Shown here: in pieces, positions 1 to 51,060 of the stretch
Numbering within the stretch: position 1 is the stretch's first letter
How the letters are laid out: each line of letters starts with the position of its first letter
IMG/VR virus record: IMGVR_UViG_3300046467_000510
Coordinates: 1-51,901 of that record
Source of the DNA: a virus
Reading direction: 5' to 3' (one strand)
Length of the DNA stretch: 51,901 nucleotides
Translations under genes and position numbers: made by a program
The notes under the pieces: generated by a model
Told to the model about the DNA's origin: nothing
Seen by the model: only the letters and a program-made list of their open reading frames with translations
Databases searched by the model: none

Positions 1-80
1 AGAAGGCGCTAAAGCGTTTGCAAGAGCGCTTTATTGAACACCTTATGGAGCGTCAACTTCATCTAAGGGGAGACTTGTGA
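1..80 (+). CDS. C-terminal fragment of an upstream gene
   Basis: An open frame enters from the left edge (first full codon at position 3) and stops at 78-80. It encodes about 25 charged, helical-looking residues ending in HLRGDL. Its TGA overlaps the GTG start of the next gene (GTGA), the same coupling seen through the rest of this operon, so it is probably a real gene end. The fragment is too short to assign. If the sugar pathway is complete, the missing 4-keto-sugar aminotransferase (PseC/DegT type) could lie in this direction, but nothing visible proves it. Confidence 0.55.
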   Translation, partial: KALKRLQERFIEHLMERQLHLRGDL

Positions 81-1078
81 ATATCCTTTTGACTGGTGCG
101 ACCGGAACGTTCGGTAAAGCGTTCCTCCGATATGTTTTAGCGGATAGACGTGTCGACGTAAATAGACTCGCCGCCTTCGCTCGTTCTGAGTCGCGGCTTG
201 CGTTGCTGAACGAACAGTATGGAGCGCATGAAGCGTTCAGACCGTTTCTTGGCGACGTGCGAGATGAACGCCGCCTTCGTGATGCGTGTGCCGGTGTCGA
301 TGTAGTCATCCACGCTGCAGCGCTGAAGCGGGTTGATGATGGCGCGTACAACCCGTTAGAGATGCACAAGACCAACGTGCAGGGCAGTATTAACGTGGCT
401 AATGCTGCAAGAGAGGTTGGCGTAAAGAAGGTCATTTTAATTTCGTCAGACAAAGCGGTCGCGCCAATTAATACGTATGGCGCGAGCAAGTACCAAGCGG
501 AAAACTGTTTACGAGAATTGAACAGCCATGCCGCACCTGTCGGCACGTCCATCTCTTGTGTGAGGTATGGGAACGTCTTAGCGAGTACCGGAAGTGTCTT
601 AACAGTATGGCGTCGACAGATAAAAGCTGGTCGCCCGTTAACCGTGACCGACAAGACGATGACTCGGTTTTGGTTGACAGCAAACGAAGCGGTCGAGCAT
701 GTCTTTCGGTCGCTAGAGTTAATGCACGGTGGAGAAATCTTTATTCCGAAGATTAGAAGTTCAAGTATCAAAACGTTGGCAGAGGCGTTCCATCCTCAAG
801 GGAAGGTGTCGATTGTTGGTAAGCGTGTCGGCGGAGAGAAGCTACACGAGGCGCTCATCAATACTGACGAACACGAGCGTGCCATCGCTCAAAAAGGAGT
901 CATCGTTATCCCGCCAGCCGTTCAGGGGACGCGACTGAGTTGGACGAGGCATGAATGGGTTAGCGACAACTCGACAAGTGTGCCGAACCCTTATGCTAGT
1001 TCTAATCCAAGCTTGTGCGATATGACAACGGTGGACCTTCATGCGTTGTTGGTTAGCGCAACAGGAGAAGCAATATGA
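77..1078 (+). CDS. UDP-GlcNAc 4,6-dehydratase-like SDR (PseB/FlaA1 family)
   Basis: A short-chain dehydrogenase of 333 aa. It opens with the nucleotide-binding motif GATGTFG (residues 7-13). It also has the 'HAAALKRVD' segment, an SSDKA motif and a YGASK motif with the catalytic Tyr and Lys, as in PseB and FlaA1 inverting dehydratases. That family removes water from UDP-GlcNAc to give a 4-keto-6-deoxy sugar, the first step to pseudaminic acid. The GTG start at 77 has an AAGGGGAG Shine-Dalgarno in front and overlaps the previous stop. The next gene starts inside its stop codon (ATGA). Family assignment is strong; the exact substrate is inferred. Confidence 0.88.
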   Translation: MNILLTGATGTFGKAFLRYVLADRRVDVNRLAAFARSESRLALLNEQYGAHEAFRPFLGDVRDERRLRDACAGVDVVIHAAALKRVDDGAYNPLEMHKTNVQGSINVANAAREVGVKKVILISSDKAVAPINTYGASKYQAENCLRELNSHAAPVGTSISCVRYGNVLASTGSVLTVWRRQIKAGRPLTVTDKTMTRFWLTANEAVEHVFRSLELMHGGEIFIPKIRSSSIKTLAEAFHPQGKVSIVGKRVGGEKLHEALINTDEHERAIAQKGVIVIPPAVQGTRLSWTRHEWVSDNSTSVPNPYASSNPSLCDMTTVDLHALLVSATGEAI

Positions 1079-1977
1079 AGGCGGCTGTTGTCGGGTTAGG
1101 ATCGATGGGCCGTCGCTATGCCGACATCCTTCTTGAGCATCCAGATGAGCCTGACATCGCGCTATGCGACTCGCTTGTCGAGCCGGATATAAAACAACCA
1201 AAAGATTTTCCTCATCGTGAGGTTTCGTTTTTTCAAGAGTACGACCGCCTCCTAAAGAACTTTGTACCCGACGTTATATTTATTGCAACGCCAGCGCGTT
1301 CTCATCTTGGGATGGCTATGCAAGCTCGGGCGAGAGATAAGAGGTGCGCCATCTTGATACAGAAGCCGTTAAGCGATACCGACCTAACAGACGAACAGGT
1401 TAGATGGTGCGTGGAAGAATCGGGGTTAATTTCCGTCGGCTATAACTGGCGCTTCCATACGTTAGTTCAGCACCTACATGGCATCAAAAATAATATTGAA
1501 GACATTACCTTTTTCGTCGCGTCCGATATGAGGAACTGGCCCGGAAAAGACTACGCCGATCCACTACGGGAGTTCTCGCACGACATCGACCTCGTGAGCC
1601 ACCTCACCACTAACGCGCATGTCACACAAGTTACTGAACGCAAGGCGTGGCACGGGAACGAACGCATCCACATACGAGGCGAACACGACCACGGGACATG
1701 GCGTGTCATTGTGTCTCCGTTTGAAAAACCGACAAGATGGTGTCGCGTTAAATTAAACGACGGGCTACGTTTAAATAAGCGCATGGCGTTAACACACGAC
1801 GACCTCATGTCGCTCTACTTACAAGAGGCGCACGAGCTTATTGTGGCGTGGACAGACGGACGCGGTCCGGAAGACTTGACCTGTCCGTTAACTGACGCAC
1901 TCCGTACCACGTTACTTGTCGACCGGATAGGAACGATGGTGATAAAGAACACAAGCTTTGATGGAGTTGTGATGTGA
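1075..1977 (+). CDS. Gfo/Idh/MocA-family sugar oxidoreductase
   Basis: A 300 aa protein with an N-terminal NAD(P)-binding motif GLGSMGRRY. The order then follows the Gfo/Idh/MocA family: an 'IATPARSH' strand-turn, a QKPLSD segment equivalent to the conserved EKP motif, and 'GYNWRFH'. Such enzymes oxidise or reduce sugar hydroxyls and often sit in NeuB/SpsF sugar clusters. It overlaps the dehydratase by four bases and the NeuB-like gene by one, so translation is probably coupled. The replacement of Glu by Gln in the EKP motif is worth noting, though the Lys thought to act in catalysis is kept. Confidence 0.85.
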   Translation: MKAAVVGLGSMGRRYADILLEHPDEPDIALCDSLVEPDIKQPKDFPHREVSFFQEYDRLLKNFVPDVIFIATPARSHLGMAMQARARDKRCAILIQKPLSDTDLTDEQVRWCVEESGLISVGYNWRFHTLVQHLHGIKNNIEDITFFVASDMRNWPGKDYADPLREFSHDIDLVSHLTTNAHVTQVTERKAWHGNERIHIRGEHDHGTWRVIVSPFEKPTRWCRVKLNDGLRLNKRMALTHDDLMSLYLQEAHELIVAWTDGRGPEDLTCPLTDALRTTLLVDRIGTMVIKNTSFDGVVM

Positions 1978-2789
1978 TGGTTTATGTGATTGCCGAAGCT
2001 GGCGCCTGTGGCGACGGGGACCTCGCGAAGATGATTCGACAAGTTAACGAGGCCGCGTCGAGTGGGGCGAACGCTGTTAAGTTTCAATACATGAGCAACG
2101 CGTTAAAGGTAGCGGAACGCCGACACGCAACTGAAGACGGGTACCAAGAACTGTATCGAAAGTATTGCGAATGGCCTCGTGAGTGGCACGGCGACTTGCA
2201 GAGCGCGTGTGTGTCTGCCGGCGTCGACTATATGTGTTCTGTATATCTAAAAGAGGACGTCTTAACTGTCTCGCCATACGTGTCGAACTTTAAGGTGTCG
2301 AGCTTCGAAGCTGACGACTACGACCTTCTCAACGCGACAGCAAGAACCATGAGACCTCCACAAAGAATGTTTGTATCGACTGGTATGTGCGGCGATACGG
2401 AATACAGAATTCTTGTCGACCGATTCAGGATTGCTATTAACGCTCAAGAGATCGTGTTGATGCATTGTGTTAGTTCGTATCCGACTCCGCTTAGTCAATT
2501 AAATCTCAGCGTGCTGTCTAAGTACAAACAGATCACCGGGTTTTCAGATCATTCAGATCCATCCTTTACGTTTACAGGAGCGCTCGCGGTGTCATGTGGC
2601 GCAAAGTTTATCGAGGCGCACATGCGACTAGATGACACTGATGTTAGTAATCCAGACGCGCCTCACGCGATGACACCGACACAGTTTGATGAGTACGTTG
2701 AACTAATACGGAACGCGGAGTTCGCTATTGGTAGCGGCCGGAAAGGAGAGATGCCATGCGAGAAGTTAATGAAGAGGTACCGAGTGTGA
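1977..2789 (+). CDS. NeuB/SpsE-like nonulosonic acid synthase, short form
   Basis: The protein resembles sialic, legionaminic and pseudaminic acid synthases, which condense a 6-carbon sugar with phosphoenolpyruvate. Visible marks are 'AEAGACGDGDLAK' and 'ANAVKFQ' at the N-terminus, 'KVSSFEADDYDLL', 'VSTGMCGD', 'LMHCVSSYP', 'ITGFSDHS' and 'GAKFIEAHMRLDD'. At about 270 aa it ends after the TIM-barrel and has no room for the C-terminal antifreeze-like (SAF) domain usual in 340-350 aa NeuB proteins. ATG 1977 overlaps the previous TGA by one base; a GTG at 1974 is an alternative. Loss of SAF may change oligomer or active-site closure. Confidence 0.82.
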   Translation: MVYVIAEAGACGDGDLAKMIRQVNEAASSGANAVKFQYMSNALKVAERRHATEDGYQELYRKYCEWPREWHGDLQSACVSAGVDYMCSVYLKEDVLTVSPYVSNFKVSSFEADDYDLLNATARTMRPPQRMFVSTGMCGDTEYRILVDRFRIAINAQEIVLMHCVSSYPTPLSQLNLSVLSKYKQITGFSDHSDPSFTFTGALAVSCGAKFIEAHMRLDDTDVSNPDAPHAMTPTQFDEYVELIRNAEFAIGSGRKGEMPCEKLMKRYRV

Positions 2790-3235
2790 CACTTCGCCGC
2801 GCAGCAATTGAAGACGTTCGACTCCTGTACGACTGGAGGAACGATACAGGAGTTCGCCTTAAGTCTTTAAACACGGAACCTCTTGACTGGGACGAACATG
2901 TCGACTGGTTCACACAGCGATTAGTGCTAACGCACAACGAGACCATCTGGATAGTTGAAGACAGCGATGCCGACCCGTACGGGAGTGGTCGCATCTTACT
3001 AACGGACGACGGCTTGGGAATGATTAGCGTTGTGATTGCGCCGGACAAGCGCGGTCAAGGTCTTGGTCGACAGCTTATTGTTCTACTGGCTGACAAGATT
3101 CGACAGATGAAGATGGTGCCTGTCGCACGTATCGTTAGAGGAAACGTGGCTTCGTTTAAGGCGTTCACATCGTCCGGCTTTCGCGTTTACGAAGACGACC
3201 CTGAGCGAGACTACGTGGAGATGCGGTGGCTTTAG
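2756..3235 (+). CDS. GNAT-family acetyltransferase
   Basis: A 159 aa single-domain GNAT. The acetyl-CoA pyrophosphate loop is RGQGLGRQ, after the β4 strand 'MISVVIAPDK'. The tail 'NVASFKAFTSSGFRVYEDD' matches the usual N-x-x-S/A-x-x-x-F-x-x-x-G-F ending. Its place between a NeuB-like synthase and a cytidylyltransferase suggests a PseH-like role, adding an acetyl group to an amino-sugar intermediate. It overlaps the NeuB-like gene by 34 bases and the next by 10. The acyl acceptor cannot be read from sequence. Confidence 0.8.
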   Translation: MREVNEEVPSVTLRRAAIEDVRLLYDWRNDTGVRLKSLNTEPLDWDEHVDWFTQRLVLTHNETIWIVEDSDADPYGSGRILLTDDGLGMISVVIAPDKRGQGLGRQLIVLLADKIRQMKMVPVARIVRGNVASFKAFTSSGFRVYEDDPERDYVEMRWL

Positions 3236-4203
3236 GTTACGAAGTTATTGAGCGCCGCAAACTTCCATCCACAGCGTGGAACGATTACGTCGACGCGCAT
3301 CCACAAGCGTGGTTCTGGCATCGGGAAGAATGGTTGAACTATTCGCTCGACTATACGAAACACTCAATCGATAAGTCGTTTGCTGTACTTAGGAACGGCG
3401 ACGTTGTCGGCATCTGTCCAGCCATCACGTGCGGTGTTGAAATTCGTATGGGCGACGATGCGTGTATTGGCCCGTTAGCGTCTTCTCCTGAAGCTACGTG
3501 TGAGGTTATAGACGCCATCCGTTCCCGCTTAACGAACTACATTGCGAACTGGAGATGGAATAGGGGTAGAGGAGAGGTTATTACTGGTCCACTCCTTAGC
3601 TTGTCGACAGAGCGGTGGGTGTATTTATCGCGATGGCTGACGTCTGTCGTACCGTTAAACGTTGGCGAGAAAGAACGATGGAGAGGCGTGCGAAAGAGTT
3701 ATCGGTCGTTAATTAACCAATCGAAAGTTCGACACCAGATTGTTCGTAAGGATATGTGGGACGACTACAAGACGTGCCATCAACAATGCGCGACTCGTCC
3801 TCGCTCCAATAACACTTACGACCATCAACACGATTGGTTCCGACGTAAGCTTGCACACGTCTATTGTGTTTATGGGGAGCACGATAAGAGTCACCCCGCG
3901 TCGGTTATGGTGACCTCAGCGCGAGGCGGCTCTGGTTCGTCGGACTGTTCAAGTCAGTCGCTCTCCACCCTGTCGGCCGCATATGTCATCACCTATAAGA
4001 ACAGAGCCTACTATGCGAGCGGTCCGTCGCTCGTTAAGAACACGCAACACCGTTTACAGTGGGAGGTCATACAAGACCTGTCCTCGTTAAACGTTCACGA
4101 CTACGAGCTTGGATGGATTAGCGACGACGGTGTCGGCTTTTTTAAAAGCGGATGGGGACACGAGACTGAAGTAATCGAGAACGTATCTGGTCAGGTTAAT
4201 TAG
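3226..4203 (+). CDS. FemAB-like / GNAT-fold acyltransferase
   Basis: A 325 aa protein whose layout recalls FemAB/BioF2-type transferases. It has an N-terminal 'HPQAWFWHREEWL' segment of the kind that starts the first GNAT-like half, and a C-terminal half with 'YYASGPSLVK', 'LQWEVIQDL' and 'YELGWI...GVGFFKSGWG'. The last stretch matches the G-x-x-x-F-K-x-x-G/F-G ending of FemAB-like proteins. In cell-envelope clusters these move amino-acyl or acyl groups onto sugars or peptides. The GTG start at 3226 lies inside the end of the GNAT gene. The fold call is moderate; the substrate is unknown. Confidence 0.6.
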   Translation: MALGYEVIERRKLPSTAWNDYVDAHPQAWFWHREEWLNYSLDYTKHSIDKSFAVLRNGDVVGICPAITCGVEIRMGDDACIGPLASSPEATCEVIDAIRSRLTNYIANWRWNRGRGEVITGPLLSLSTERWVYLSRWLTSVVPLNVGEKERWRGVRKSYRSLINQSKVRHQIVRKDMWDDYKTCHQQCATRPRSNNTYDHQHDWFRRKLAHVYCVYGEHDKSHPASVMVTSARGGSGSSDCSSQSLSTLSAAYVITYKNRAYYASGPSLVKNTQHRLQWEVIQDLSSLNVHDYELGWISDDGVGFFKSGWGHETEVIENVSGQVN

Positions 4204-4205
4204 TT

Positions 4206-4856
4206 GTGTCTAGAAAGAATGTAGTCGCTGTCATTCAGGCTCGTCTTGGGAGTAAACGCTTTCCCGGGAAGGCGTTGGAGAAGCTTAGAGGCAAGCCGTT
4301 AGTGTTGCATGTATGTGACCGCGTTAAGCGTGTCGAGCGCGTCGACCGAGTGGTCGCGGCTGTTCCATACGGCGACCACGAACTGATTGACGTCTTACGT
4401 AAAGGCGGGATGGAGCATATCGTTCTTGGGCCGGAGAACGACGTATTGATACGGATGTGGATGGCGGCCGCAGTTAACCGAGCCGACGTTGTTATGCGTG
4501 TTACTGGCGACTGTCCGTTATGGTCGCCTGTTGCTGGCGCGTTAGTTCTTAAGTCGTTTCTGTACGACAAACAACGACGACAGTACTGGTCAAACGATAC
4601 GCGGATATCTGGTTGGCCCGATGGGACTGACACGGAGGTATTCAGTTTCAATTTACTAAAACAAACTCGGTATGCCAGATCGACTCAACAATCCGACGAC
4701 CACGAACACGTAACGACGTGGATGCAACGCTTGGAACACGGACGCTGTGGCGTTGTGACTCGCCCGTGGGATGAGGTAAGTAAAATGAAACTCTCTGTTG
4801 ACGAACCTCAAGACCTAACGCGTGTTATTGAATTTGGAGACGAGGTGATCGAGTAA
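4206..4856 (+). CDS. SpsF/NeuA-like cytidylyltransferase
   Basis: A nucleotidyltransferase of 216 aa. The N-terminal 'VAVIQARLGSKRFPGKAL' is the nucleotide-binding signature of CMP-sugar synthetases (A-R-x-G-S-K-R-x-P-G-K). Later come 'VVMRVTGDCPLW', with the metal-binding Asp, and 'KLSVDEPQDL', a standard SpsF/NeuA ending. The expected reaction joins CMP to the NeuB product, activating it for transfer. It starts with GTG two bases after the FemAB-like stop, and its TAA overlaps the next ATG. No glycosyltransferase is visible in the window, so transfer may depend on the host or on genes outside. Confidence 0.85.
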   Translation: MSRKNVVAVIQARLGSKRFPGKALEKLRGKPLVLHVCDRVKRVERVDRVVAAVPYGDHELIDVLRKGGMEHIVLGPENDVLIRMWMAAAVNRADVVMRVTGDCPLWSPVAGALVLKSFLYDKQRRQYWSNDTRISGWPDGTDTEVFSFNLLKQTRYARSTQQSDDHEHVTTWMQRLEHGRCGVVTRPWDEVSKMKLSVDEPQDLTRVIEFGDEVIE

Positions 4857-6103
4857 TGCCGTGGGAAGACCATTTTACTAAACACCTGATCGCCGAAAGC
4901 CATAACGTGCCAACGTTTTTAGATAAAGCGAAAGCATTAACACCCGGAGGGTCTCAAACAAGTAGTCGACGCCACGGGAAGGTTGGCACTATTGACTATC
5001 CGGCCTTCGCAGTCGAAGCCGCAGGCGCGTATATTTACTTCTCAAAAACAGATCGAGCTATCGACCTTGCTGGAGCTAACGCGACATGTCCGTTAGGCGC
5101 AAACCATCCTCGCGTTCTTGAGGCTGTCCTTAGTCAACTCGGTAAAGGCGGGACGATGAGTTTGCCGGCCGAGCTTGAGGTTTCTGTATCGGAGCAAATG
5201 CTTAACGTTGTTCCGTTTAACGACAGAATGGTCAGGTGGGTGCGTACTGGAAGCGAAGGGATGAGCGCGGCGGTCGCGATTGCGTTACAAGCGACAGGTC
5301 GGGCGCGTGTTGGTGTTCGTGTTGGTAGTTATCACGGTTGGCATACGTGGACGCGTGACATCTGCACGCCTATGTCAGAGTCGGCATTACCAGAAAGACG
5401 TTTATTAGAAACCTTGGCGGCCTACTGTATCGAGTCGCCGCGATGGACCGAAGTTGATGCCAAGTACAAACGATGGGTGGCATCAATTAGAAAGTTATGC
5501 GACGAGACAGGCACGTTGTTAATTTTTGACGACGTTGTTCACGCGTTCCGTTTTGAGTCGGGAGGACTCCAGCAAAGCTCGGGCGTTCCTGCGGACCTCG
5601 CGGTCTTTTCTAAGGCGTTAGGAAATGGGATTCCGGTGGCGTGTGTGGTGGGTAAGAAAGACCTCATGCAACAAACCGAATACCGAGTCAGTAGTACGTT
5701 TGGTGGAGAGACACTTGGCCTCGCAGCGGCGGGTGCTGTCTTACAACTACACCAGACGCAAGATGTGTGTGGTCAATTGCGACAGGTCGGCGTCGACTTA
5801 CGAGAACGCCTTCTCGACGCTATCGACGGAACGGGTATTAGACTTGTCGGCTGTCCTCAGCACTTCCGTTTCGAAGCCGACACCGATACACCAGACACGC
5901 CTCTTGACGATAGATTTTTAACGGCTTGTATTTACGATAGCCAGCACCCTGTCTTAGTTCACCGTGATGCCAATAACGTAAACCTTGCGATGGACGAATA
6001 CGTTAGAGAGAACATCGCCGCCACTATTAAACGTGCTGCACATAACTTAGAGAGCGAAGTGTTTCGCTCTCACGAGAGAGGTTCAGATTATGAAGGTGGT
6101 TAG
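4856..6103 (+). CDS. Class III (glutamate-1-semialdehyde aminomutase-like) aminotransferase
   Basis: A full-length 415 aa PLP enzyme. 'TPGGSQTSSRR' at the N-terminus, 'RTGSEGMSAAVAIALQATGR', 'SYHGWHTW', 'LLIFDDVVHAFR' with the PLP-contacting Asp, and 'FSKALGNGIP' with the Schiff-base Lys are all in family order. The final 'NVNLAMDEYVRENI' fits too. GSA-like aminotransferases recur in NeuB/SpsF surface-sugar clusters, so it more likely aminates a sugar or sugar acid than makes tetrapyrroles. ATG overlaps the preceding stop by one base, and the nitrilase gene starts within its last 14 bases. Confidence 0.85.
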   Translation: MPWEDHFTKHLIAESHNVPTFLDKAKALTPGGSQTSSRRHGKVGTIDYPAFAVEAAGAYIYFSKTDRAIDLAGANATCPLGANHPRVLEAVLSQLGKGGTMSLPAELEVSVSEQMLNVVPFNDRMVRWVRTGSEGMSAAVAIALQATGRARVGVRVGSYHGWHTWTRDICTPMSESALPERRLLETLAAYCIESPRWTEVDAKYKRWVASIRKLCDETGTLLIFDDVVHAFRFESGGLQQSSGVPADLAVFSKALGNGIPVACVVGKKDLMQQTEYRVSSTFGGETLGLAAAGAVLQLHQTQDVCGQLRQVGVDLRERLLDAIDGTGIRLVGCPQHFRFEADTDTPDTPLDDRFLTACIYDSQHPVLVHRDANNVNLAMDEYVRENIAATIKRAAHNLESEVFRSHERGSDYEGG

Positions 6104-7106
6104 TTGCGTTCCCCGTCAGTCGTATTCGTTTGCTGACAAACTTGATTGGCTTGACGCGGCTCTTAAAACTCACAAGCCAGATTTATTTGTAACGCCGCAA
6201 GAATACTTCGGCGGAGTCCAACAGATGTTTTTCAAAACTGGCGAACCTCTTAGTTATAAAGCGGAAGACGTTGTTAATCCGATCCACGAACTGGCGAAGA
6301 GTTATGACTGCGGTATTGCGTTTGGCGCGGTTATTGATGATCCGTTATTACGGGAACGACGTGAACGTATCTTTGTGGTCGACCCTGCGCGAGGTGTTAC
6401 AGGAACGTTCGATAAGATGATGCTTCCCGCTTACGACCACATCGACGCCAAAAGCGAAATCGCTATCTCTCCTGAAACGATTTTTAAGAAACGAGCGAGG
6501 TCGGCCTACGTGAAAGGTGCGGAGGTGACGATTCTGTTCTGTTGGGAAGTGTGGAGTAATTTTATTTGGCATGCGTTAGCGAAAGCCGATGCTGACTTCG
6601 TGTTGAGCATGATTAAGTTTGGTATCGCAGGGTATCCGACGAAAGGAAAAGACGACCAAGGCCGAGCGTGTGTGACCGGTTTTGGTTACGGCGACGACGG
6701 TGGATGGCTCAGACGGTTACAGAGTGCGGCTGAGTTCGACGTTGCGGCTCCTATTGTGTGCGCCACGAATAGTTGGGACCAACCAAAGCGCTCTCGACCG
6801 CTATGCGGAACAATTTTTCCGTATGACGACGATACGTTGGCCTACCCGCCGAAGGGGAGTCGAGGCACGATTGAAGAGTTGTTTGTTGTTGATGAGATAG
6901 ATCCGAAGAAGTGTCGGTACAGTCGAGAGAATAAATTTAAGCTGCACGAGGAGACGGGTGAGTGGCCAAGTACTACGGTTCGCGCCAAGACCATGATGTG
7001 GAAAGTTAGACGAATGGAACGTAAGTTTGAAGCGTTAGCGACTAACGCGCCAACCGGACCCGTTCTTTCTCGCCGCTCTCGGTCATCACAATTAAAGGGT
7101 CGATAG
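6090..7106 (+). CDS. Nitrilase-superfamily C-N hydrolase
   Basis: A 338 aa enzyme carrying the nitrilase triad: Glu38 in 'TPQEYFGG', Lys109 in 'DKMMLPAYDH' and Cys151 in 'LFCWEVW'. The superfamily splits nitriles, amides or carbamoyl groups, or uses them as ammonia donors. It overlaps the aminotransferase gene and ends one base before the first DpdA-like gene, so it could serve either pathway. It might work on an amide-bearing sugar or on the nitrile or amide at C7 of a deazaguanine. The second idea is speculative, because no QueC is seen to make the nitrile here. The C-terminal 40 residues are basic. Confidence 0.8.
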   Translation: MKVVSCVPRQSYSFADKLDWLDAALKTHKPDLFVTPQEYFGGVQQMFFKTGEPLSYKAEDVVNPIHELAKSYDCGIAFGAVIDDPLLRERRERIFVVDPARGVTGTFDKMMLPAYDHIDAKSEIAISPETIFKKRARSAYVKGAEVTILFCWEVWSNFIWHALAKADADFVLSMIKFGIAGYPTKGKDDQGRACVTGFGYGDDGGWLRRLQSAAEFDVAAPIVCATNSWDQPKRSRPLCGTIFPYDDDTLAYPPKGSRGTIEELFVVDEIDPKKCRYSRENKFKLHEETGEWPSTTVRAKTMMWKVRRMERKFEALATNAPTGPVLSRRSRSSQLKGR

Positions 7107-7107
7107 C

Positions 7108-7932
7108 TTGAGGCTGTATACGGCTGGCGAAAGTGCCACGCACCTTGAACCTCTCATGGTAGGGGTGGGTCTTCGTAATCGACTAGTCAGCTTTGCGTTT
7201 AAGCGAGGCAGTCCGTTCCGGTGGTGGGTTAGCGAACGACCAGAAACAGGTGGGCCGCCAGACGGCTCCTCTGTTTTTTTAGATAGCGGAGCGTTCTCCG
7301 CGTTAACGCAAAACATAACTATCGATCTCGACACTTACATTAAATGTATTCACACGTATAAAAAGCATCTCGATGTTTATGCGTCCCTCGACGTTATTGG
7401 AGACGCGAAAGCGTCGCAGGCGAATACCGATTACATGGAGTCTTGTGGCCTCTGGCCGCTCCCAACGTTCCATCGTGGATCCAAATGGACTGACCTGCAC
7501 TATATGTGCGAGCGGTATGACCACTTCGCTCTTGGTGGCGTGGCAAGCGAGACAACCAGACGTGAATCGATACAGCCGTGGCTAGACGGCTGTCTATCAA
7601 TCATTAAAGGGTATTGGCCTCGCCGTATTCACGGCTTCGGCATACAGGCACAGTGGGCGTTAGAGCGCTATCCGTTTTACAGTTCTGACTCGTCATCTGT
7701 TGTGATGGCCGCGTCCTTTGGAGGCGTTAATCGATTTCAGAACGGTAAATACTTTTGCACACACTGGAAAGAATACGCTGCCGAAAAAGTTACCTCGTCC
7801 ATTGTTGATACGGTCGAACAGTCAGCCTATATAGAACGAGAACGCTTAAACGCTATCGCGTTGGTGGCGTTTGAGAAACACCTTACTGAGTTATGGCGCG
7901 TTAGGGGTGTCGACTGGGACACGTTAAGTTGA
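7108..7932 (+). CDS. dpdA: DpdA-like DNA guanine transglycosylase, copy 1
   Basis: A 274 aa relative of tRNA-guanine transglycosylase. Asp59 in 'FLDSGAFSA' matches the base-binding DSGGF motif. 'FALGGVAS' and 'HGFGIQAQW' match the substrate-binding loops, and Asp194 in 'YPFYSSDSSS' is where the nucleophilic Asp should be. The Cys-x-Cys-x2-Cys zinc site of tRNA enzymes is absent. Phage DpdA proteins swap guanine in DNA for a 7-deazaguanine base. The flanking queD-queE-folE genes, which make that base, support DNA modification over tRNA work. Start is TTG at 7108, one base after the previous stop, with an AAAGGG Shine-Dalgarno. Confidence 0.82.
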   Translation: MRLYTAGESATHLEPLMVGVGLRNRLVSFAFKRGSPFRWWVSERPETGGPPDGSSVFLDSGAFSALTQNITIDLDTYIKCIHTYKKHLDVYASLDVIGDAKASQANTDYMESCGLWPLPTFHRGSKWTDLHYMCERYDHFALGGVASETTRRESIQPWLDGCLSIIKGYWPRRIHGFGIQAQWALERYPFYSSDSSSVVMAASFGGVNRFQNGKYFCTHWKEYAAEKVTSSIVDTVEQSAYIERERLNAIALVAFEKHLTELWRVRGVDWDTLS

Positions 7933-8741
7933 TGTTGTTTTATCACGCTGGCACACACGGATTAGATGATGGGTCGAACGAGGTCCTGTTTAAACACGGA
8001 CTCCGTTCTCGGCTGTTAGCCTATGGAGCTATTCCGGACCAGCACCAACAGTTCTGGTTAGACGACGCGCCCGATAACGCGCAGGTCTTTATCGATAGCG
8101 GAGCGTTTAGCGCCCATACACAAGGCAAGCCAGTTTCGTTAACTAAGTATTGTGAGTTCTTAACGAAGTATCCCAACGTGTCTGAATACGCGGCTCTCGA
8201 CGTTATTGGTGACCCCATGTTGAGTCGTTGTAATACGGAGGAGATGGAAGTGCGCGGCCTTAAACCAATCCCGACGTTTCATAGGGGGTCATCATGGCAA
8301 GAGTTACAACGTATTGCGGAACGTTACGAGAGGTTCGCGCTTGGAGGTGTTGCAAGCGAGGGGACAACGCGAGGCGTGTTACAGCCGTGGCTTGATGGGT
8401 GCTTTTATTGGATCAAGAAACACTGGCCGCGACGGGTTCATGGTTTTGGAATTCAAGCACAATGGGCGATCGAGAGGTATCCGTTTTACAGTTGCGACTC
8501 GACTAACGTTTTAAAGTGCGCGGCCTTTGGAGATATTATTCGGTTTCGTAACGGACGTATCTCTATACGCGACTGGGAGGAAGACGCTAAGAAGACTTTT
8601 GATGGTGGCATTATGGGAGGTCCGAACGGAGAGCGGCCTTACTTAGAACGTCAACTGGCAAACCTCGAAGCACTAAATGGCCTTCGGGTTTATGTAACAG
8701 AGTTATGGACGAAGCGAGGGGTGACATGGCACGACAAGTAG
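7932..8741 (+). CDS. dpdA: DpdA-like DNA guanine transglycosylase, copy 2
   Basis: A paralogue of the gene just before it, sharing long blocks such as 'DSGAFSA', 'LDVIGD', 'PTFHRGS', 'FALGGVASE', 'QPWLDGC' and 'HGFGIQAQWA'. Both catalytic aspartates are kept (Asp55 in IDSGAF, Asp189 in YSCDS), so neither copy looks like a dead subunit. The N-terminal 50 residues and the last 60 differ most, where DNA or partner recognition could diverge. ATG 7932 overlaps the previous TGA; TTG 7929 is an alternative. The pair may be a heteromer, or two enzymes with different sequence targets. Confidence 0.82.
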   Translation: MLFYHAGTHGLDDGSNEVLFKHGLRSRLLAYGAIPDQHQQFWLDDAPDNAQVFIDSGAFSAHTQGKPVSLTKYCEFLTKYPNVSEYAALDVIGDPMLSRCNTEEMEVRGLKPIPTFHRGSSWQELQRIAERYERFALGGVASEGTTRGVLQPWLDGCFYWIKKHWPRRVHGFGIQAQWAIERYPFYSCDSTNVLKCAAFGDIIRFRNGRISIRDWEEDAKKTFDGGIMGGPNGERPYLERQLANLEALNGLRVYVTELWTKRGVTWHDK

Positions 8742-9370
8742 AAACGCCTTGGAAGAACACGGCTGTCGATAAGCTGATACACGCCGACTGGAATTACAAA
8801 GTTGACGATGACGACATGACGACAAAGTTGGTCGCCAATATAAAGCGAAACGGACAAGTCGAAAGTATTTTGGTTCGCAATATGCCTGACGGGGTATTTG
8901 AAGTGGTTAATGGGAATCACCGCCTTGTTGCGTTCCAGCAACTCGGTATTAAGGAGGTTATGTGTTTCCACCTTGGTGACATTGACCTGAAGGCCGCGCA
9001 ACGTTTAGCGATCGAAGTTAACGAAACGGGATTTGATGCAAGTTATCCGGCTCTGGCAAAACTGGTTCGTGATATTGCCGGAGGAGACGATTTTACTGAC
9101 GACTCGTTAGCTGACCTTGCTGAGACCTTACCGTTCCACCATGACCAACTTAATCACTTCGTGAATCTGGCCGATGTGAATTGGGAACAACAGTATGGGG
9201 AACCTGAAGGCGACGGAACGTCCTTACGAAAAGCGCCTCCCGTAAAGCTAACGGAAGAACAGCGTGTTATTTTCAATCGCGCCTGTGCCAAGATTCGCGA
9301 GGACGATCGAGACATTTCAGAAGGTCGTTGTCTTGAATTAATTTGTGCCGACTTTTTAGCGGGGGTGTAA
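8726..9370 (+). CDS. ParB-like domain protein beside dpdA (possible DpdB-like partner)
   Basis: About 214 aa with a ParB/sulfiredoxin-type N-terminal domain. 'ANIKRNGQVESILVR' is followed by 'EVVNGNHRLVAFQQLG', the G-x-H-R nucleotide-binding box of ParB-N folds. The middle is acidic and no ParB helix-turn-helix is obvious. In bacterial dpd clusters DpdA works with the ParB-like protein DpdB, so a similar partner role is a reasonable inference. I prefer ATG 8726 over ATG 8705 because GAGGGGTG lies just upstream and the overlap with dpdA shrinks to 16 bases. Its stop overlaps the queD start (TAATG). Confidence 0.72.
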   Translation: MARQVETPWKNTAVDKLIHADWNYKVDDDDMTTKLVANIKRNGQVESILVRNMPDGVFEVVNGNHRLVAFQQLGIKEVMCFHLGDIDLKAAQRLAIEVNETGFDASYPALAKLVRDIAGGDDFTDDSLADLAETLPFHHDQLNHFVNLADVNWEQQYGEPEGDGTSLRKAPPVKLTEEQRVIFNRACAKIREDDRDISEGRCLELICADFLAGV

Positions 9371-9819
9371 TGAATTCGACTATCGCAAAAACATTTCACT
9401 TTTCAGCAAGCCACATGCTGACAGGATTACGTGGAAGTCATAAGTGTATGAACATGCACGGCCATAACTACGAGGTCGAGGTCGTTATTGAGGGACCGGT
9501 TAATTCAAAAACGGGTTTCGTGTTCGATTACGGAGACATGTCTGAAATTGATGACTGGATCCAAGTAAATTTCGACCATGCCCATATCTGTTTTAACGAA
9601 TCCGAGGCCACGATTGTAAAAGACGCATGTATCGATATTCTAAATTCTCGAAAAGACGATCTGAACGATTACGATGCTCGCGTTTACGTATTGGGACGTT
9701 CAGCGTCGGCTGAAAACATTGCTGATGAAATCTTTCAGGCGGCTCGGGCTGTTACTCCGTTAGTAAAATCTGTTCGGGTACGAGAAACGGAGAATACATG
9801 GGCGAAGAACCGAAATTAG
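9370..9819 (+). CDS. queD: 6-carboxy-tetrahydropterin synthase
   Basis: A QueD of 149 aa. Zinc ligands His15 ('FSASHML') and His30/His32 ('MHGHNYEV') and the catalytic Cys26 are in place. 'FVFDYGDM' and 'VRVRETENTWA', with the substrate-binding Glu, complete the signature. It converts dihydroneopterin triphosphate to 6-carboxy-tetrahydropterin, the second step to 7-deazaguanines. ATG 9370 overlaps the ParB-like stop, and the queE start falls 22 bases inside this gene, as expected for a tightly translated pathway unit. Confidence 0.93.
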   Translation: MNSTIAKTFHFSASHMLTGLRGSHKCMNMHGHNYEVEVVIEGPVNSKTGFVFDYGDMSEIDDWIQVNFDHAHICFNESEATIVKDACIDILNSRKDDLNDYDARVYVLGRSASAENIADEIFQAARAVTPLVKSVRVRETENTWAKNRN

Positions 9820-10508
9820 CCGTTAGTGAAATCTTCGGCCCAACGTTCCAAGGCGAAGGACCGTCTATTGGTCGACCCTGTCTCTTTTTACGTTTGGCGG
9901 GATGCAACTTGGCGTGTTCGTGGTGCGATACGCCTTATACGTGGGACTGGAATCGCTACGACAAGTCTAAAGAGGTCTCTCTACGCACCATGTGGTCTGT
10001 CATGTCCGAATTACGACGGCTCTCCCGAGTACACCGTCAACCAATCAAGCATCTCGTGATTAGCGGTGGCGAGCCGATGCTTCAAGGGAAGGCGTTAAAC
10101 ACGTTATGCGAATGGCTACGACGAGAGCGCTGGACAACGGAAATAGAAACAGCCGGAACGGTGTTACCGCCATCGCTAACGTTTGTGGACCACTACAATG
10201 TGAGTCCCAAGTTATCAAACAGCGATAACCCACTAGAAGCCCGTTATCGACCTGACGTATTAGACCGACTAAACGAAGCGCCATCAAAGGCGTTTAAATT
10301 TGTGGTAGAGCAACCAAAAGATTTTAATGAGATTGATGAATTAGTTAACAAGCATGATTTATTTCCCGTCTATGTAATGCCTGAAGGGATTGAAGCGAAT
10401 CAAATTCACGAACGTCTGGCTGAAATTGCTGACGAGGCTATAAAGCGAAACTATCGAATCACCACGAGGCTACATGTCACGATCTACGGAAACCAGCGCG
10501 GAGTTTAA
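9798..10508 (+). CDS. queE: 7-carboxy-7-deazaguanine synthase (radical SAM)
   Basis: A 236 aa QueE. 'EIFGPTFQGEGP' at the N-terminus, the C-x3-C-x2-C cluster motif in 'GCNLACSWCDT' (Cys36, 40, 43), 'VISGGEPMLQ', 'IETAGT' and the ending 'TIYGNQRGV' are typical. It rearranges 6-carboxy-tetrahydropterin to 7-carboxy-7-deazaguanine (CDG) with SAM and a 4Fe-4S cluster. A long insert around 'RYDKSKEVSLRTMWS' matches the variable region of the family. No QueC (PP-loop SGGxDS motif) is found to carry CDG on to preQ0. It overlaps folE by 35 bases. Confidence 0.93.
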   Translation: MGEEPKLAVSEIFGPTFQGEGPSIGRPCLFLRLAGCNLACSWCDTPYTWDWNRYDKSKEVSLRTMWSVMSELRRLSRVHRQPIKHLVISGGEPMLQGKALNTLCEWLRRERWTTEIETAGTVLPPSLTFVDHYNVSPKLSNSDNPLEARYRPDVLDRLNEAPSKAFKFVVEQPKDFNEIDELVNKHDLFPVYVMPEGIEANQIHERLAEIADEAIKRNYRITTRLHVTIYGNQRGV

Positions 10509-11040
10509 CCGGTTAAGGGAACTCGGCCGACAACTGCTAGTCGAGATTGGGGAAGACCCGACGAGAGAGGGGTTACGAGAAACACCTGATCGATTTGCTC
10601 GCTATTGGCAGGAGTTTGTAAATTACAACGCCGGTAAACTCGAAACGACGTTCGACAGCGTCAGTATTGACCAAATGGTCATCGTCACAGGAATGCGTGT
10701 CTGGTCGTTGTGCGAACATCACCTTCTTCCGTTCTGGTGCGACGTATCGGTTGGCTATATCGCCCAGAAAGAAGTTATCGGCCTTTCTAAAATCGCTCGC
10801 ATCTGTCATAAGCACGCCCATAAGCTTCAACTTCAGGAGCGCCTCGTTACTGACATTGCAACGGACATTTCCGATATTAGTAAGACGGACAGCGTGGCCG
10901 TTATCGCGAGAGGTGTCCATACGTGTATGGCGATGCGAGGCATCAAGTCGGATGGCATAATGGTGTCCTCAGTTATGCGTGGACGCTTTAAAGAGAGCCA
11001 CGAAACGCGTATGGAGTTCCTCCAACTCTCAAGCACCTAA
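10474..11040 (+). CDS. folE: GTP cyclohydrolase I
   Basis: A standard GCYH-IA of 188 aa. 'GEDPTREGLRETPDRFARYW', zinc ligands Cys80 and His83 in 'LCEHHLLPF', 'GLSKIARI' and the third ligand Cys151 in 'GVHTCMAMRG' are all present. It makes dihydroneopterin triphosphate from GTP, feeding QueD. The first ten residues are encoded inside the queE end. GAGG about seven bases before the ATG supports this start. Carrying its own FolE lets the phage raise precursor flux above the host level. Confidence 0.95.
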   Translation: MSRSTETSAEFNRLRELGRQLLVEIGEDPTREGLRETPDRFARYWQEFVNYNAGKLETTFDSVSIDQMVIVTGMRVWSLCEHHLLPFWCDVSVGYIAQKEVIGLSKIARICHKHAHKLQLQERLVTDIATDISDISKTDSVAVIARGVHTCMAMRGIKSDGIMVSSVMRGRFKESHETRMEFLQLSST

Positions 11041-11555
11041 TGCAACACTTCGTTAGCGCCCGATTACTCAAAAAGCGTATTGCCGAACTCGCCTTCGAAC
11101 TCTCTCAAGACTACGAAGGACAGAACCTCGTTGTTGTTGGTGTCCTGAACGGGAGTTTTATCCTTATGGCCGACCTGATACGAGCGCTCTATACACATCA
11201 CATCGACCCCGTTGTCGACTTCATTCAAGCGCGAAGCTATACAGGCACACAGCCACGAGACACTCTTACGACCTACGTCGACCTTAGTGTCTCTATTACC
11301 AACCAGCACGTGCTCTTGGTAGACGACATTGTGGACACCGGACGAACCATTACACACGTAAAGGAACGGCTTCAACAACACGACCCATCGTCATTAAAAG
11401 TATTAAGTTTGATTTATAGAGACACTCGTGGCAGTTTATTCACAGCACCTGAATACTTTGGCTATTTACTACGCGATGGATTCGTCGTGGGGTACGGGAT
11501 GGACTTGGACGATAAGATGCGTGGTGCTAACGAGTTACGGACAACCGAGAGGTGA
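11040..11555 (+). CDS. Hypoxanthine/guanine phosphoribosyltransferase-like enzyme
   Basis: A type I phosphoribosyltransferase of 171 aa. 'VVGVLNGSFILMADLIR' is the first loop of HPRTs and 'VLLVDDIVDTGRT' is the PRPP-binding loop. 'DFIQARSYTGT' resembles the flexible catalytic loop, and 'GYGMDLDDKMR' resembles the HPRT C-terminal 'GYGLDYDxxxR'. The reaction turns hypoxanthine or guanine plus PRPP into IMP or GMP. Its ATG overlaps the folE stop, making it the last gene of the modification operon. The likely benefit is to reuse guanine released by DpdA base exchange; that link is inferred. Confidence 0.87.
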   Translation: MQHFVSARLLKKRIAELAFELSQDYEGQNLVVVGVLNGSFILMADLIRALYTHHIDPVVDFIQARSYTGTQPRDTLTTYVDLSVSITNQHVLLVDDIVDTGRTITHVKERLQQHDPSSLKVLSLIYRDTRGSLFTAPEYFGYLLRDGFVVGYGMDLDDKMRGANELRTTER

Positions 11556-11558
11556 GAA

Positions 11559-11798
11559 ATGAAACGCAGGTCTTTAAATGGTGACAGCAAAAAAAGAGAC
11601 GCTTTAAATTTAACATCCAGAGCAGTACGACCAGAAACACATTTAACATCCAGAGCAGTTGGTCGTTTTAACTATTTAACGATCAGAGCAGACAGCCTTC
11701 AACGCCTTATTGGTGAGACGGTTGCGACACGCCTTACATCTTTACGAGGCGAACCCGTTCACTACAGAGCACCGTACGGAGGAGCGACAAGTTCTTAG
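11559..11798 (+). CDS. Possible small basic protein overlapping a 33-bp repeat array
   Basis: An open frame of 79 codons starts three bases after the phosphoribosyltransferase stop, with GAGGTGAG just ahead of the ATG. Its middle contains LTSRAV, LTSRAV and LTIRAD at an exact spacing of 11 residues, because the DNA has three near-identical 18-mers every 33 bases. The same 18-mer occurs outside any ORF at 50947-51036, so the DNA motif may be the selected element and the peptide a by-product. No known domain is seen. Coding status is uncertain. Confidence 0.35.
   Translation: MKRRSLNGDSKKRDALNLTSRAVRPETHLTSRAVGRFNYLTIRADSLQRLIGETVATRLTSLRGEPVHYRAPYGGATSS
11609..11692 (+). repeat. Three 18-mer direct repeats, 33-bp period
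   Basis: TTTAACATCCAGAGCAGT lies at 11609-11626 and again at 11642-11659. TTTAACGATCAGAGCAGA lies at 11675-11692. The third differs by G-A for A-T-C positions and the last base. The family recurs at 11880-11913 and, in four perfect copies, at 50947-51036. Confidence 0.85.
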
Positions 11799-11847
11799 TG
11801 CGGGAGTTATATGAAATAAGTGAACCGCTCACTCGTTACTGTGTAAC

Positions 11848-11970
11848 AAGGCACAACAGGAGTCTTGGCTTGAGATTAATTTAACGTTGAGAGCAGTTAA
11901 CGTTCAGAGCAGTACCTGTTCACTACCTGTTCACTTCCAAGGCGCGACAGGAGTCTCGGCTTGCGATTAA
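11848..11970 (+). repeat. Pair of 32-bp direct repeats with two further 18-mer motif copies between
   Basis: A 32-bp segment containing CAGGAGTCT and GGCTTG and ending GATTAA occurs at 11848-11879 and 11939-11970, with a few mismatches. Between them TTTAACGTTGAGAGCAGT (11880-11897) and GTTAACGTTCAGAGCAGT (11896-11913) overlap by two bases, followed by two copies of CTGTTCACT-like sequence. No coding signal is seen. Confidence 0.75.
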
Positions 11971-12020
11971 AAAGAGTGAAGGAAAGAGGTCTCTGTAACG
12001 AAGGCGTCCGCTGTCACCCG

Positions 12021-12154
12021 CGCTCACTCGATGTAAGCCGAGGCCGAGCACTCCTACGTCGAGCCAGAGTGACAACAGGAGTGAAGGTATCGCTCACTCG
12101 ATATAAGCCCAGCCAAGCACTCCTGCGTCGAGTCAGGAATGAGTCAGGAGTGAG
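12021..12154 (+). repeat. Two 70-bp direct repeats with internal inverted arms
   Basis: Units start with CGCTCACTCG at 12021 and 12091; the same 10-mer also occurs at 11826. Each unit holds CACTCCT and, about 20 bases later, AGGAGTG, so each can fold into a hairpin. The second unit ends GTGAGCG, pairing with its own CGCTCAC. The 70-bp period is not a multiple of three, so the open frame across it is probably not a gene. Lying before the terminase genes, it could be part of a packaging or replication site. Confidence 0.75.
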
Positions 12155-12450
12155 CGTCTAATTTAGCGACCCATTCAATTAAAAGGTCAAGGTCGAACAT
12201 GAGTTAACAACGGGCTATGTTTGCAAGAGTGAGTAAAGTGAGAGGCTGGACGCTCTATAGGAGGCGCTGGCAACCCTTTAAAAACGACGAGCGTGGCCGA
12301 GGTAATGCAAATGGTCGTGAGGGTTTTGCACAGCCTTAAAACGGCGCATATAGCGTTTGTGCGTTTTTGCAGGACTTTTTAGGTAGGGAAGTTGCAGTCG
12401 AATGACTGGAGGTTAGCCCGACTCTGGATCGCCAGAAACAAAGGACTTTT
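12155..12450. other. Intergenic stretch before the terminase genes, no clear gene
   Basis: I see no convincing ORF here. The segment GACTTTTTAGGTAG at 12373-12386 recurs at 12484-12497, each preceded by TGCAG or TGCAGG. This position, directly upstream of a small terminase, is where cos or pac sites often lie, but no end or cleavage site can be recognised from sequence alone. Confidence 0.5.
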
Positions 12451-12561
12451 ATGCGTGGACTCTCGAAACAGTTAAAAACTGCAGACTTTTTAGGTAGCAA
12501 TCTATTTGCTGTAGTTGCGCTTCTTGCTCACTTTAAGGCCACGACACAGACTGGAGCTTAG
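12451..12561 (+). CDS. Possible 36-aa peptide
   Basis: ATG 12451 follows AAAGGA with a good spacing and opens a 36-codon frame. Its centre 'SNLFAVVALLAHF' is hydrophobic, so a small membrane peptide is possible. Part of it is encoded by the repeated GACTTTTTAGGTAG motif. It stops three bases before the next small ORF. No family is recognised, and a chance ORF cannot be excluded. Confidence 0.35.
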   Translation: MRGLSKQLKTADFLGSNLFAVVALLAHFKATTQTGA

Positions 12562-12563
12562 GA

Positions 12564-12665
12564 ATGAGCGGATCAAGTGAAGGCGCGACTAAACGAAAGC
12601 GCGGTCGCTCACTCTTAAATAATTACGTGACCACAACAGATGTTCGACTCGTGTTAGGAGTTTAA
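12564..12665 (+). CDS. Truncated duplicate of the small terminase N-terminus (33 aa)
   Basis: The first 15 codons, MSGSSEGATKRKRGR, copy the start of the downstream terminase gene (MNESSEGTTKRKRGR) at both DNA and protein level. After this the frame diverges and stops at 12665, two bases before the next GTG. It looks like a partial tandem duplication of about 45 bp, now either a short basic peptide or a remnant. The copy breaks just before the PKGSK that completes the AT-hook in the full gene. Confidence 0.5.
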   Translation: MSGSSEGATKRKRGRSLLNNYVTTTDVRLVLGV

Positions 12666-50922: not shown

Positions 50923-51060
50923 TTTAATGTTGCAACTCTATTTCGATTTAACGATCAGAGCAGTCGCAAACATTTAACGATCAGAGCAGTACTAATTTAA
51001 CGATCAGAGCAGTACTGATTTAACGATCAGAGCAGTCGTAATAATTTAACGTTGCAACTC
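50923..51060 (+). repeat. Iteron-like array: four perfect 18-mers flanked by two related 16-mers
   Basis: TTTAACGATCAGAGCAGT lies at 50947, 50973, 50996 and 51019. TTTAATGTTGCAACTC (50923-50938) and TTTAACGTTGCAACTC (51045-51060) bracket the set. Start-to-start steps are 24, 26, 23, 23 and 26 bases, about two helical turns. It fills most of the 313-base gap between 50792 and 51106, after a terminator and before the RusA gene. The design fits an iteron origin or a multi-site operator. No ORF covers it. Confidence 0.9.

Follow-up and report, generated by a model that had tools for sequence, protein, structure and literature searches.

Tandem DpdA paralogues that both look active, and the recurrence of such pairs in phage 7-deazaguanine loci

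We describe two adjacent genes of an uncultured virus whose products are, by sequence, short phage DpdA (DpdA1-type) DNA-guanine transglycosylases, and in which both copies (A and B) look active. Two-copy loci of this kind recur in other phages, and we consider it rather probable that A and B form an active pair, which would place one base into different DNA contexts or work as an A:B heterodimer. The window, by which we mean the whole stretch of DNA analyzed, is the 51.9 kb record of this virus, taken whole, and includes terminase, portal and capsid genes.

A and B lie within a nearly gapless run of plus-strand genes from 77 to 11555, followed in order by genes for a ParB_N-domain protein, QueD, QueE, FolE and an HGPRT-like protein, and are thus linked to FolE, QueD and QueE:

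6090-7106, plus strand: nitrilase-superfamily (CN hydrolase-like) protein with a Glu38-Lys109-Cys151 triad, directly 5' of A
7108-7932, plus strand: DpdA copy A, TTG start, 274 aa; catalytic D59, D95, H175 and D194
7929-8741, plus strand: DpdA copy B, of 270 aa if it starts at TTG 7929 and 269 aa if at ATG 7932; catalytic D56, D91, H171 and D190
8705-9370, plus strand: ParB_N-domain protein (Pfam PF02195, at its cut-off), overlapping the 3' end of B
9343-9819, plus strand: QueD-like 6-carboxytetrahydropterin synthase
9798-10508, plus strand: QueE-like radical SAM enzyme, product 7-carboxy-7-deazaguanine (CDG)
10474-11040, plus strand: FolE, GTP cyclohydrolase I
11040-11555, plus strand: hypoxanthine/guanine phosphoribosyltransferase-like (HGPRT-like) protein (TIGR01203, 137.9 bits, slightly below the cut-off of 150)

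The ATG of B overlaps the stop codon of A (TGATG), and the two genes are translationally coupled. Guanine set free by DpdA may be salvaged by the HGPRT-like protein.

Both copies match PHROG 887 ("queuine tRNA-ribosyltransferase"; 2e-41 and 3e-42) and, by tblastn, the DpdA of phages 9g and CAjan, with values against 9g-type DpdA of 9e-18 for A and about 5e-29 for B. Pfam and NCBIfam gave no match for either copy. A family profile aligned with the solved DNA-guanine transglycosylase 7ui4 (E 0.0012), and AlphaFold models (pLDDT 91.5 for A and 88.9 for B) predict a TGT fold with two catalytic aspartates in both copies. Compared with TGT, the predicted folds reached VIA Z scores of 19.6 (A) and 20.1 (B), and their best solved matches were archaeal and bacterial TGT (Z 19-20 over ~250 residues). 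Homology outside TGT/DpdA is ruled out by the PHROG, PDB profile and fold results. The first-pass annotation had described tandem DpdA-like paralogues and had made this assignment depend on their phylogeny; the adjacent frames, family matches and models bear out the description, and both copies fall inside the phage DpdA1-type tree, with relatives of phage 9g. H175 and H171 correspond to H196 of 9g, a histidine conserved in 129/129 alignment rows, and it is the lack of this residue in DpdA2 that separates it from DpdA (PMC6884629). Enterobacteria phage 9g DpdA (DpdA1) resembles A and B in family, catalytic aspartates, the H196 equivalent, the lack of the TGT zinc motif and linkage to FolE, QueD and QueE; it differs in being a single copy with a longer C-terminus, in a locus that has Gat-QueC (dG+) and no ParB neighbor.

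The two copies are 47% identical over 251 aa (BLASTP, E 5e-80). Both retain the aspartate of DSGAF (D59 in A, D56 in B), that of LD (D95, D91), the DpdA1 histidine (H175, H171) and the D of ERYPFYS[SC]DS (D194, D190), so that the two catalytic aspartates noted in the first-pass annotation are indeed present in both, together with an additional aspartate and the histidine. In an hhalign comparison, D56 lay opposite the DSGGF aspartate of E. coli TGT, a local match of 22 columns with low probability. As that annotation had also noted, the central motifs are common and the termini differ. The base pocket motifs FHRGS and LGGVASE are identical in A and B and identity around HGFG..DS is 85%, against 21% at the N-terminus, 20% at residues 71-85 and 35-38% towards the C-terminus; at the N-terminus and residues 71-85 it is as low as between unrelated family members. 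A shared pocket with diverging N-terminal, 71-85 and C-terminal regions fits a single base, placed in two DNA contexts or handled by a complex with two sides, better than it fits two bases. The zinc site of tRNA-guanine transglycosylase (Tgt), CxCxxC...H, is missing from A and B, as had been observed, but it is likewise missing from all 359 DpdA frames examined; its absence therefore says nothing about the pair and had been given too much weight.

Both copies appear to be maintained. A 96-97% identical sister phage (contig L003, about 95% identical over this region) carries both genes, and comparison with it gave dN/dS values of 0.14 (A) and 0.08 (B), indicating purifying selection on each copy. 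Of the 36 most conserved columns of the family, each copy deviates in 3, while single-copy members deviate in 2.6 on average. We reject a decaying copy on the dN/dS values together with the retained residues, and as far as sequence can tell both copies look catalytically competent.

We surveyed IMG/VR, GenBank phages and genome contigs and reduced 323 loci to 217 distinct non-redundant DpdA groups. Two intact copies were present in 20 of the 217, a fraction that overstates their frequency and gives no estimate for nature, since sampling was in part guided by the sequences of pairs; one further group has a partial second copy. A pair unique to this phage is ruled out by these two-copy loci elsewhere, among them those of Megan and Nicole72, two Microbacterium phages in GenBank. 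A and B group together as sisters in the tree (SH-aLRT 98-99), which argues for duplication within the lineage. Further sister or near-sister pairs occupy separate places (L117/L126, L161, L103, L090/L093, L269 and L290), and another cluster of actinophage-like pairs goes back to one or more older duplications. The copies of L131 and those of L214 sit on different branches and are not sisters, with weak branch support. Phylogeny thus indicates that pairs arose by duplication at least seven times, separately, a count from a quick tree search with many weak branches that rests mainly on the starred branches holding each pair (the L269 set at 94). One ancient duplication behind all pairs is ruled out by the trees. 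The independent appearance of twin genes in several phage lineages suggests that two copies are useful. This recurrence had escaped the first-pass annotation, as had the lack of QueC and the nitrilase-like gene next to A.

Catalytic residues are kept throughout these pairs: D, D, H and D occupy the catalytic positions in 38/38 pair members of the final alignment. From a subunit with a purely structural role one would expect some losses among them, so their retention speaks for active copies and argues against a pair of the eukaryotic type with a dead subunit. The eukaryotic TGT heterodimer QTRT1/QTRT2 also consists of two paralogous TGT-fold proteins; it acts on tRNA, and QTRT2 has lost catalysis, whereas A and B both keep the catalytic set, a difference from the eukaryotic pair that the first-pass annotation had rightly drawn. 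In Megan and Nicole72 the adjacent paralogues are ~48% identical, keep the catalytic residues and adjoin a ParB-domain gene, as in the window; unlike A and B, they stem from a separate duplication in the tree and occur with QueC. The Nicole72 announcement does not discuss its DpdA genes as a pair (PMC12352058), and nothing relevant on two-copy DpdA or on DpdL was found in the open literature searched.

A ParB-domain gene lies next to short phage DpdA genes in many related loci. In the loci whose sequence extends 1.5 kb to either side, it was in view for 14/17 pairs and 62/160 singles (Fisher p 7e-4, relatedness ignored). One two-copy locus (L126, 5815-8445) carries a tandem dpdA-parB unit, in the order dpdA, short parB, dpdA, parB, with both ParB domains confirmed by Pfam; this duplication of the whole unit suggests that each DpdA may have its own ParB-domain partner. 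We infer that the ParB-domain protein is the DNA-reading partner of DpdA.

In the mechanism that we propose, A and B would be a lineage-specific duplicated transglycosylase pair expressed from one operon. The nucleophilic aspartate (D194/D190) would displace guanine from deoxyguanosine in phage DNA, while the other (D59/D56) would activate the incoming 7-deazaguanine, supplied by FolE, QueD and QueE. We infer a division of labor: most likely the two copies would insert one and the same base in different sequence contexts, the ParB-domain protein probably serving as the partner that binds DNA, or would form an A:B heterodimer with both sites working. The outcome would be broader protection from host nucleases.

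The stricter possibility of an obligate pseudo-symmetric heterodimer, in which A and B associate like TGT subunits, with one DNA strand or one half-site for each active site, is conceivable but on the unlikely side. The divergence between A and B includes an N-terminal part that, in the models, structurally matches the start of TGT, and in Z. mobilis TGT the start region contributes to the dimer interface. The TGATG overlap couples the two genes, and TGT enzymes work as dimers (PMC6884629). Against this, A and B lack the zinc subdomain that TGT dimers use, most DpdA loci have a single gene, so that homodimers or monomers suffice, and parB stands between the two copies in L109 and L126.

A duplicate kept for dosage or redundancy, giving higher activity with no division of labor, seems improbable to us. 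The retention of all motifs and the purifying selection on both copies would fit it, residue retention being compatible with redundancy, but the copies are strongly diverged (dS near 2 at 47% identity) and their divergence is non-uniform by region. That each copy handles a different 7-deazaguanine derivative is quite improbable: while the unusual pathway, with a nitrilase-like enzyme and no QueC, may hold more than one intermediate, A and B hardly differ in FHRGS, LGGVASE and the catalytic region. Hardly credible is a decaying pseudoenzyme or a regulatory subunit like QTRT2, for which the eukaryotic pair is a precedent, given D, D, H and D in both copies, dN/dS far below 1 and 0/38 pair members without a catalytic residue.

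Our preferred reading of one base shared by both copies leads to the nature of that base. The window and the sister record, both of which may be incomplete, showed neither QueC (PF06508) nor Gat-QueC, the preQ0 pathway feature, and QueC was absent from eight further records checked, representing six lineages; it could lie outside the 51.9 kb fragment or be supplied by the host. Mycobacterium phages Bipper and Cracklewink resemble the window in having a ParB-domain gene, DpdA, QueD, QueE and FolE without QueC, and differ from it in a single DpdA, the pocket loop LGKLL and no nitrilase-like gene found. For Bipper, which lacks queC, CDG was suggested as the intermediate (PMC6884629), and CDG is the intermediate we would expect in pathways without QueC. 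The missing QueC, together with the nitrilase gene directly upstream, makes CDG or a CDG derivative more likely than preQ0, and the inserted base is probably not preQ0.

Nitrilase-superfamily homologues occur in four DpdA lineages besides the sister phage:

L146, 4057-5115: nitrilase-superfamily gene
L204, 4330-5406: nitrilase-superfamily gene
L018, 221-1219: nitrilase-superfamily gene
L055, 4982-6001: nitrilase-superfamily gene

The Glu-Lys-Cys triad is invariant among the homologues, two of which score above the Pfam CN_hydrolase cut-off, and no QueC was found in the nitrilase-bearing DpdA clusters. Of the 157 groups that combine QueD, QueE and FolE, 4/18 without QueC and 0/139 with QueC have a nitrilase-like gene (Fisher 1e-4), the window and the sister phage being two of the four; corrected for relatedness, with very few usable pairs, this exclusion was not significant. 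The nitrilase-superfamily enzyme might catalyze a different last step in making the 7-deazaguanine base.

The loop after LGG (142-148 in A, 138-144 in B, at the position of LAVGE in TGT) is mostly MV or LV where the cluster has QueC; in clusters that lack it, the loop reads VA, KLL or similar. By raw counts, the LGGVA loop is associated with QueC absence (Fisher 3e-5); a related loop definition, corrected for relatedness with 4 usable pairs, was not significant. From these sequences the loop is a candidate base-specificity element. The arginine of FHRGS was rejected as a CDG-specific marker, as FHRG is also present in one QueC-bearing locus, L323, and the arginine is missing from other loci without QueC.

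Taken in its widest form, our proposal would be that phages have repeatedly evolved two-component transglycosylases, made of two active, ParB-guided DpdA paralogues that set one mark in two contexts, and that here a nitrilase replaces QueC and yields a base not yet described; in all these parts together we regard this as unlikely. Target choice by DpdA is poorly understood, and repeated active pairs would offer natural experiments on which part of the protein reads DNA. The replacement of QueC by a nitrilase would point to another way of finishing a 7-deazaguanine base.

Several features of the surrounding DNA may be recorded. Megablast of the first 12 kb of the window against phage records gave no match, and a search of genome contigs found no host for the phage. 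HGPRT-like phosphoribosyltransferases are also present in the 7-deazaguanine clusters of L019, L026 and L030-L038. Upstream, in the same gene run as dpdA, a sugar cluster (77-6103) resembles a nonulosonic-acid route, with a PseB-like dehydratase, Gfo/Idh, a NeuB-like synthase, GNAT, a FemAB-like protein, a CTP transferase and a class III aminotransferase; the sister phage L003 keeps it from NeuB on, and none of the other fetched DpdA loci has it. A stretch at ~11560-12660, which separates the HGPRT-like gene from the terminase genes, looks non-coding and holds repeated AGAGCAG and TTTAACATCCAGAGCAG-like motifs, and its counterpart in the sister phage matches positions 50946-51036 of the window as well.
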